From Bdellovibrio sp. (GTDB taxonomy: Bacteria > Bdellovibrionota > Bdellovibrionia > Bdellovibrionales > Bdellovibrionaceae): a DNA stretch of 64,000 nucleotides. Shown one piece after another: positions 13,873-15,435 of the stretch (its first letter is position 1; every line of letters starts with the position of its first letter). Where the stretch lies: assembly GCA_014376435.1 (NCBI GenBank), contig JACMRL010000025.1, positions 186,001 to 250,000 on the forward strand. Direction: 5' to 3'. A program made the position numbers and the translations under genes. The notes beneath the pieces were generated by a model. That model did not search any database and was not told the DNA's origin. It saw only the letters and a program-made list of their open reading frames with translations.

Positions 13873-14448
13873 TTACTTAGTCTTCTTAGCTGTCTTTTTA
13901 GGAGCCGCGGCTTTTTTTACTGAACGCTTAGAGGCAGCTTTTTTAGGAGCAGCTTTCTTCGCAACTACTTTTTTAGGAGCAGCTTTTTTAACAGTTGTTT
14001 TAACTTCAGCTGGAATATCGCCATCACGAGCCGTTACGCGAGCTACACGGTCAGCCATTTTTTGTTCGATACGCTGAGTACGCTCTAGAGCCATGTCTTT
14101 AACAACTGGTTTAGCATCAGACTTAGTTTTAGAACCATCTGGTGAAGTGATACCAAGGATAAAAACTTCCGTGAAATGTTGTTTGTGAGTTCCGAATTTT
14201 CTGTAACCTTGACGACGTTTCTTTTTGAAAACGATAATCTTACGGCCACGTGCTTGCTTCGTAACAACTGCAGTTACGGAAGCGTTTTTTACTAATGGAG
14301 CGCCAACGTGAGCTTTATCTCCACCGATCATAAGAACTTCCGCAAACGTAAATTCAGCACCAAGATCTTGATCAATTTTATCAATTTGTAATACATCGCC
14401 GGCTTGAACTTTATACTGTTTGCCGCCCGTTTTGATAATCGCGTACAT
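13873..14448 (-). CDS. rplU: 50S ribosomal protein L21 with long Lys/Ala-rich tail
   Basis: Residues 1 to about 103 are normal L21 (MYAIIKTGGKQYKVQAGD, KKRRQGYRKFGTHKQHFTEV), which binds 23S rRNA. A further 88 residues follow, ending in repeats of the type A-A-P-K-K-V-V-A-K-K-A, resembling histone-H1-like or PAKKAA tails. L21 is normally about 103 aa, so the tail nearly doubles it. It is in frame, without a stop. It leads the rplU-rpmA transcript; a 144-base region separates it from the divergent Fic-like gene. Confidence 0.95.
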   Translation of the reverse strand: MYAIIKTGGKQYKVQAGDVLQIDKIDQDLGAEFTFAEVLMIGGDKAHVGAPLVKNASVTAVVTKQARGRKIIVFKKKRRQGYRKFGTHKQHFTEVFILGITSPDGSKTKSDAKPVVKDMALERTQRIEQKMADRVARVTARDGDIPAEVKTTVKKAAPKKVVAKKAAPKKAASKRSVKKAAAPKKTAKKTK

Positions 14449-14575: not shown

Positions 14576-14604
14576 TATAATTGGGTTATATTATGACCCA
14601 ATTA
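14576..14604 (+). promoter_or_regulatory. Promoter -10 and operator-like inverted repeat spanning the start of the Fic-like gene
   Basis: A perfect -10 hexamer TATAAT occupies 14576-14581. Overlapping it is a perfect inverted repeat with arms TAATTGGGT (14578-14586) and ACCCAATTA (14596-14604) and a 9-base spacer. The second arm begins immediately after the ATG at 14593-14595, so the repeat covers the predicted transcript start and the start codon. I found no good -35 or ribosome site. Binding by an HTH dimer here would block transcription, and the gene it precedes encodes a HTH domain. Confidence 0.55.
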
Positions 14605-15435
14605 ATCTGGCAAAGTCCTCAATGGCCGGCTTTCAGCTGGCAAAGCTCGGTTCTATTAGAACTTTTAGTTAAGGTGAGGTTCGCCCACGGAAAGCTCTTG
14701 GCCTTCGCTCCGCTGATCGAAGCTCAGCGAGGAGATATTCTTTTAATCGATTCTTTGGATCGTGATCTGACCAAGGATCGCTTAGTCGAATTGTTTGGCG
14801 AATTTCGTGAATCTAATTTACGTAATTCTGGGCCTCCGGCGGAAAATTTGAATGCGGAACTTAAAAAGTTTTTGGCTTGGTTTAATGAACCACCCGTTGG
14901 CTTAGATGGAGTGCTTCGTGCTGGAATCGCATTTTTTTGGTTTCTAGTTATTTACCCTTTCGAAGAAAACAATGAAGAAATCGCGCGCGAAATTTGCGAG
15001 CTGGCTTTAGCTCAGGATGAAAAATTGGCGATTCGACTTTATGATTTACCCGCGCAGCTAGAAGCGAATTTGGGAGAGTATCAAAAAGTTCTTGCACAGA
15101 GTTTTCGTGGTGATAGTGATATAACTGATTTTTTAATATTTTTTTTAGATTTACTTTTGAAAGCGCTTGGCTCGGCCGCCGAACCAGCCGCGCAGTTACT
15201 TAAAGTTTTTCAGTATTGGAAAAATAAAACTCACTTGGAACTGAATGCGCGACAGCGTCAGCTGATCGATTTTCTGTTAAGCAAATCAGATTCTTCCATC
15301 AGTAATCGTGAATACGTCGAGCATTACAAAATTAGTCGCGAATCTGCGAAGCGAGATTTGAAAGATCTTGAGAAGCTGAATCTAATTACGCTTGGAGCAG
15401 GGCGCGGGCGCTCTGTAACTTACACTCTTAAATAA
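14593..15435 (+). CDS. Fic-fold protein with inactivated active site and C-terminal winged HTH
   Basis: A 280-residue protein laid out like class II/III Fic AMP-transferases. The N-terminus is DUF4172-like (IWQSPQWPAFSWQ). The Fic core follows (AGIAFFWFLVI), and a C-terminal winged HTH spans about 216-278 (ISNREYVEHYKISRESAKRDLKDLEKLNLI). The catalytic motif H-P-F-x-x-G-N-G-R-x-x-R reads Y121-P-F-E-E-N-N-E-E-I-A-R132: the catalytic His is Tyr, and the phosphate-binding G-N-G-R is N-N-E-E. AMP transfer should be impossible, so I infer a DNA-binding regulator built on a dead Fic domain. An inverted repeat covers its start. ATG 14593 matches the family start; TTG 14581 is the alternative. Divergent from rplU. 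Confidence 0.75.
   Translation: MTQLIWQSPQWPAFSWQSSVLLELLVKVRFAHGKLLAFAPLIEAQRGDILLIDSLDRDLTKDRLVELFGEFRESNLRNSGPPAENLNAELKKFLAWFNEPPVGLDGVLRAGIAFFWFLVIYPFEENNEEIAREICELALAQDEKLAIRLYDLPAQLEANLGEYQKVLAQSFRGDSDITDFLIFFLDLLLKALGSAAEPAAQLLKVFQYWKNKTHLELNARQRQLIDFLLSKSDSSISNREYVEHYKISRESAKRDLKDLEKLNLITLGAGRGRSVTYTLK

Follow-up and report, generated by a model that had tools for sequence, protein, structure and literature searches.

Two class II Fic proteins form the background to the locus described here. CbFic2 (PDB 8CIL) combines a DUF4172 domain with a winged helix-turn-helix (wHTH), an architecture like that of our protein, and its description places the dimer interface on the DUF4172 helix (PMC10628234). 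CccR of Yersinia pseudotuberculosis is at once a toxin and an autorepressor. According to the report on CccR (PMC9755527), the protein represses the promoter of its own gene by way of inverted repeats close to the -35 and -10 elements, and repression is lost once dimerisation is broken; a mutant, CccR-H192A, still represses, also when delivered from neighbouring cells. A catalytically dead DUF4172-Fic repressor was not found in the open-access literature by title or abstract start.

We studied such a gene in a 64,000-nucleotide stretch of Bdellovibrio sp. DNA (the window). Its ORF occupies positions 14593..15435 of the plus strand, exactly the bounds of the original prediction, and encodes 280 aa with 0 internal stops; it was assigned to a catalytically dead DUF4172-Fic-wHTH protein from the ORF, domain matches and a structure model. 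The Pfam DUF4172 domain matched residues 5-61 (14605..14775, plus strand) with 32.4 bits against a cut-off of 25. The Fic and HTH_DeoR profiles scored slightly below their cut-offs (23.9 vs 24 and 20.9 vs 21, respectively), and in a six-frame search the Fic stretch reached 25.9, above the cut-off. The Fic motif at residues 121-132 (14953..14988, plus strand), located by sequence and alignment, reads YPFEENNEEIAR, compared with HP[FY]xDGNGRxxR in aligned intact relatives and HPFDDGNGRIGR in CbFic2: the catalytic His and the GNGR loop are lost, as had been claimed. Inspection of the 280-aa sequence disclosed no intact Fic motif elsewhere, a point on which the original prediction depended.

CbFic2 was the nearest solved structure by sequence (8CIL, E 1.3e-38). 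In the alignment, residues 3-47 of CbFic2 correspond to 1-45 of the window protein and residues 164-369 to 76-279, so that nearly 90 residues are absent between the two blocks. At this shortened junction (residues 46-82; 14728..14838, plus strand) the alignment places two blocks of the canonical relatives, mostly ~365-380 aa long, that the window protein lacks: the inhibitory-helix segment, (S/T)xxxE(G/N), and an MQVVSG-type segment, the flap. The structure model predicted a Fic fold, matching that of CbFic2, and a C-terminal wHTH, so the fold proposed at the outset does appear. Of the three parts then described as intact, the DUF4172 N-terminus and the wHTH stood, and the Fic fold proved to have lost two blocks. 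The protein is a Fic-family relative that has lost its catalytic His and GNGR loop as well as the flap and the inhibitory helix. Alignment and model further located a helix at residues 18-36 (14644..14700, plus strand), equivalent to the DUF4172 helix given as the CbFic2 dimer interface in PMC10628234, and the wHTH recognition helix, S-R-E-S-A-K-R-D-L (15334..15360, plus strand). The window genome encodes two further Fic proteins with an intact HPFADGNGRTSR motif (L001, 1270-2406, minus strand; L002, 637-1869, plus strand); both have hydrophobic signal-like N-termini and are possibly exported.

A search for inverted repeats revealed a palindrome over the start codon that the original prediction had missed, TAATTGGGTTA-TATTA-TGACCCAATTA (14578..14604, without strand), a predicted operator whose arms differ by one mismatch. 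The left half-site, H2, spans 14578-14588 and the right one, H3, spans 14594-14604, inside the gene start (ATGACCCAATTA, coding for M-T-Q-L). When the window was shuffled 100 times, the pattern derived from this palindrome gave no match. A -10-like TATAAT (14576..14581, plus strand), visible in the sequence as well as in the alignment, overlaps H2; a consensus promoter scan listed no promoter at 14576-14581, which we count against the repressor reading. The gene is divergent from rplU (bL21, named by eye; 13873..14448, minus strand) in 7 of the 14 genomes of the genus, with a gap of 124-156 bp (measured in G002 from an alternative start). Alignment of this intergenic region in the seven genomes showed half-sites like TGACCCAATTA in alternating orientation, arranged as H1-N7-H2-N5-H3. 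Because H3 lies within the start codon, the protein begins M-T in six of the seven and M-N in G001. The upstream half-site H1 was kept in G002, G008, G012 and G001, with changes in G005, and was eroded or lost in the window and G007; what is left of the operator in G001 is degenerate, its arms matching at no more than 6/11 positions. Inverted repeats at the protein's own putative promoter, a feature of the CccR type, are thus present at 14578-14604 and conserved at the gene starts of other species.

We consider it probable that the 280-aa protein is a dimeric repressor that likely binds the start-codon palindrome and likely shuts off its own transcription. It would dimerise through the DUF4172 helix, its wHTH would contact the palindrome at 14578-14604, and binding would block the promoter that overlaps the operator, from which a transcript with almost no leader is predicted. 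Since TATAAT extends into H2 and the start codon lies within H3, a bound dimer would cover both promoter and start.

The divergent arrangement and the short gap are also what would be expected if the protein controlled the rplU-rpmA-obgE operon through the shared intergenic region, self-repression being a by-product. The -35-like box of rplU (plus-strand TGTCAA in six genomes, GGTCAA in G001), however, ends 41-64 bp from H2 in all seven (41 bp in the window); subtraction gives a distance of 34-46 bp to H1 in the genomes that retain it, so the box does not overlap the operator. Moreover, the box is present in G003 and G010, which have no such gene there, and the operator is found away from rplU in G006, G011 and the intact relatives. 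Control of rplU is disfavoured by the lack of overlap and by the separate occurrence of box and operator, and we regard it as distinctly improbable. The rplU-rne interval is itself variable, since its content differs among genomes: rplU directly adjoins an rne-like gene in G003 and G010, and in G004, G009, G013, G006 and G011 the interval holds a different gene, whose product looks like an ATPase from its first residues. In five genomes of the genus (L073, L074, L075, L077 and L078) the dead Fic is replaced by a protein of 366-376 aa whose start is P-loop-like, marking a small site of variation next to a ribosomal operon. No downstream partner gene was conserved between genomes at E 1e-3 except within the sister pairs G005/G012 and G006/G011. 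A small HTH-like protein and a nucleotidyltransferase-like protein (names by eye), possibly a toxin-antitoxin pair, follow the dead Fic of G002 (L038, 9918-11167).

The operator was then sought in other genomes. A scan of the genus with the H2-N5-H3 pattern (up to three mismatches, reversed pattern as control) matched the gene start in nine genomes and two weak sites elsewhere (in G013 and G010:C18), with 0 matches for the reversed pattern; where the gene sits elsewhere (G006, G010 and G011), the operator accompanies it. Among 66 genomes of the family there were 16 operator sites in 15 genomes (reversed-pattern control, 0), 15 of them at the start of a DUF4172-Fic gene, although that of G073 is cut off by the contig end. 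The sixteenth, in G065, is an orphan stretch of 68 bp (L106, 4900-4967) that shares 90% identity with the promoter and operator of the G062 Fic gene but has no Fic gene behind it; it is likely a deletion scar. The operator was present in 14 of the 18 family genomes with a DUF4172 match. As for the other four, the G001 operator is degenerate, and G032, G035 and G083 (L048, L049 and L150) combine another helix with the half-site TGCGGAGAT[T/A]A.

Exact operator palindromes were also seen on contigs classed as viral: L172 (9437-9465), L173 (675-701; three half-sites, spaced N5 and N6) and L174 (4719-4745; a full N5-N7-N5 array of four half-sites). The exact scans of viral contigs returned 0, 1 and 2 contigs, with no Fic match within the available stretches; these palindromes may be decoys, scars or misclassified host DNA.

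Recognition helix and half-site were compared across 51 loci, of which 45 were distinct once repeats had been taken out. The comparison did not include L106, L110 and L111, which have no gene, or L050-L054 and L057, which are further copies or lack upstream DNA. Nine of the 45 were dropped, either because no helix was recognised (L045, L107, L157, L159, L160 and L166) or because the arms matched at fewer than 8 of 11 positions (L041, L149 and L151). Helix and half-site covaried in all 36 usable loci, a count that is not a probability, since the first loci were already known when we framed the rule and related rows are not independent. All 19 loci with an AKRD helix had TGACC[C/T]; of the 17 without K in the helix, 13 had TGCGG[A/T], and TGAAGC, TGAGGC, TGAGCC and TGGGCC occurred once each. 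L041 (G001), with its AKRD helix and degenerate operator, counts against a perfect rule. In an earlier version of the analysis, which covered 38 loci and missed seven that the later run recovered, arms matching at 9 or more of 11 positions were found in 34 of 38 loci at N5 and likewise at N7, compared with ~1 in base-shuffled stretches; other odd spacings (N1, N3, N9 and N11) were also raised, at 23-31 of 38, because the arms of a single palindrome can be shifted. The same array occurs in L055 (Oligoflexales), and an alternating N7/N5 array with other half-sites in L056 (Thiohalocapsa) and L058 (Alloalcanivorax), both gammaproteobacteria. The array and the helix/half-site pairing offer a route to predicting the binding sites of many uncharacterised DUF4172-Fic proteins from sequence.

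The original prediction had named DNA binding as one of two possible roles. This half now has strong sequence evidence: the palindromic operator accompanies the gene and varies in step with the recognition helix, the reading frames of dead orthologues are open, and the model shows a Fic domain with a wHTH. We also searched for further targets. The exact half-site TGACCCAATTA occurs once in the window genome, at the dead Fic gene, so that no regulon is visible, although in a draft that is ~91% complete a target may be missing. Half-sites with at most one mismatch lay at 48 places (its own included) vs 57 for the reversed control; given this lack of enrichment we set the idea of a regulon in the window genome aside. 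Palindromes of other spacing in the 14 genomes gave three sites away from Fic genes (G007:C35, G004:C16 and G001:C57) vs four in the reversed controls. A repressor whose single visible target is itself has no obvious benefit, which counts against our reading, and self-repression alone cannot explain the selection described below.

Two protein searches, one of which scored only the 7995 candidates with most words in common, yielded 23 short motif-less proteins of 247-322 aa, the window protein counted; the dead orthologues that had been proposed as a check do exist, with open frames. A full-length protein, P0052, has His replaced by Tyr in an otherwise normal motif (YPFDDGNGRMAR); it lies on another branch, keeps the inhibitory helix and is perhaps a first step on the same path. 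In a 76-row tree, 26 dead rows (G001 among them) fell on one side of a branch with 100/99 support, and the pair G006/G011 (HPFDDGNQRVAS and RPFDDGNQRVAS, both without the inhibitory helix) was placed among the intact proteins. Since G006 retains the motif His, we only infer that it is dead. The tree excluded P0003, P0007, P0057, P0061 and P0069-P0073, and also the genome entries G000 and G007, which are the same proteins as P0001 and P0003; three of the excluded rows (P0057, P0061 and P0069) are fragmentary proteins whose motif is intact. It required three label changes, likewise in 5-95% of the bootstrap trees; on that count G006/G011 and P0052 would each have lost function separately, but the starred branches force only two. 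A single clade of 27 dead rows, from a test that additionally excluded P0028, P0052 and G029, was not rejected (p-AU 0.23). The tree favours a second, independent origin of the dead form, which would have argued strongly for the repressor reading. With one clade not rejected, we stop short of proposing two origins for the shortened form and hold that reading with slightly less confidence.

We compared 25 dead with 47 intact rows, without P0003, P0007, P0028, P0052, G006 and G011. The inhibitory glutamate was present in 47/47 intact rows, and its column consisted mostly of gaps among the dead ones. The P and N of the motif were kept in at least 90% of the dead rows (G001 has lost the N); at the His position S was commonest (64%). 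Because intact rows were selected by HP[FY]xxGNGR, their H, G and R columns are invariant by construction, and the independent result concerns the inhibitory-helix and flap columns only; the motif table, based partly on gapped rows, served for motif letters and not for counts. The retained P and N, together with conservation of residues 1-45 and the Fic core between close orthologues, could indicate a different chemistry or ligand binding in a remodelled pocket, with the operator only setting the level of the protein. The dead proteins have, however, lost the flap and the inhibitory glutamate along with the motif His, and His is replaced by differing residues (S, Y, Q, E and L) across dead members, so that a pocket role seems unlikely.

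Divergence between close orthologues was informative on the remaining alternatives. Complete loss of function could be read from the missing catalytic parts, from the half-site gone from the window operator and from G065, where only promoter and operator of such a gene remain: the gene would then be a decaying pseudogene with a leftover operator. Against this, the 26 dead proteins group together behind a strongly supported branch, all eight coding sequences examined have an open frame with no internal stop, and the pair G000-G007 gave dN 0.28 and dS 1.69 (near saturation), or dN/dS ~0.17; dS was saturated for G005-G012. The recognition helix SRESAKRDL is identical in both pairs and unchanged in most dead members. 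We find decay very hard to credit. Identity in the G000-G007 and G005-G012 pairs was 89% and 92% over the first 45 (40) residues and 50% and 71% over the wHTH, which, apart from the recognition helix, is the fastest-changing domain, a further point against the repressor reading. The tightest part is therefore the N-terminal helix and not the whole wHTH, which speaks against a simple wHTH-only story. G001 (L041, 3815-4702, minus strand), a dead member adjoining the split from the intact proteins, has the altered helix NREAAKRDL and degenerate half-sites, which points either to a joint drift of the two or to loss.

Residues 1-45 being the best conserved part, and the equivalent helix forming the CbFic2 dimer interface according to PMC10628234, the protein might instead pair through this helix with intact Fic proteins and restrain them as a dominant-negative partner at the protein level. 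Yet a second DUF4172 match was found in 0/9 dead-gene genomes of the genus, and we give this proposal only a slim chance. Under the repressor reading, a benefit could come from genes that arrive from outside: the dead Fic may be a domesticated immunity repressor that silences intact Fic toxin genes with the same operator on their entry into the cell. If so, it would resemble the repressor of a resident prophage blocking a second phage. This idea, which we hold as a speculation with the balance against it, needs patchy intact genes with the same operator, and such genes occur in G010, G027, G029, G062, G079 and probably, as the cut-off gene, in G073. Intact DUF4172-Fic genes were found in 0/9 dead-gene genomes of the genus vs 1/5 others (G010), counts that are uninformative on immunity. 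Relatives of the G029 Fic were detected in 995 of 72,556 plasmid records (489 covering 80%, all below 60% identity) and, without any case of 80% coverage, in 25 of 50,697 phage records, which weakly suggests patchy spread.

Among the known systems, CbFic2 has AMPylase and deAMPylase activity and carries HPFDDGNGRIGR and TSAIEG, both of which the window protein lacks. CccR shares with the window protein the inverted repeats at its own promoter, which is putative here, and the C-terminal wHTH, and serves as a precedent for self-repression, but CccR is an intact toxin whereas here the enzyme parts are lost, and the CccR site is AGATAATCAT-N26-ATGATAATCT, unlike the 11-bp half-sites arrayed here at N7 and N5 spacing. 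Within the same family, the intact DUF4172-Fic-wHTH genes of G010, G027, G029, G062 and G079 have, as here, an AKRD-type helix and a TGACCCAATTA or TGACCCGATTA operator; they differ in carrying the HP[FY]xDGNGR motif and the inhibitory helix, and in having the start codon outside the operator instead of inside it. A self-repressing Fic protein was thus already known in CccR, and what is new is a predicted one that has shed the enzyme. Toxin and repressor are united in one Fic protein in CccR, and here evolution appears to have split them, with the enzyme discarded and the predicted repressor and its operator retained, so that the role of the DNA-binding end of Fic proteins becomes testable apart from the enzyme.
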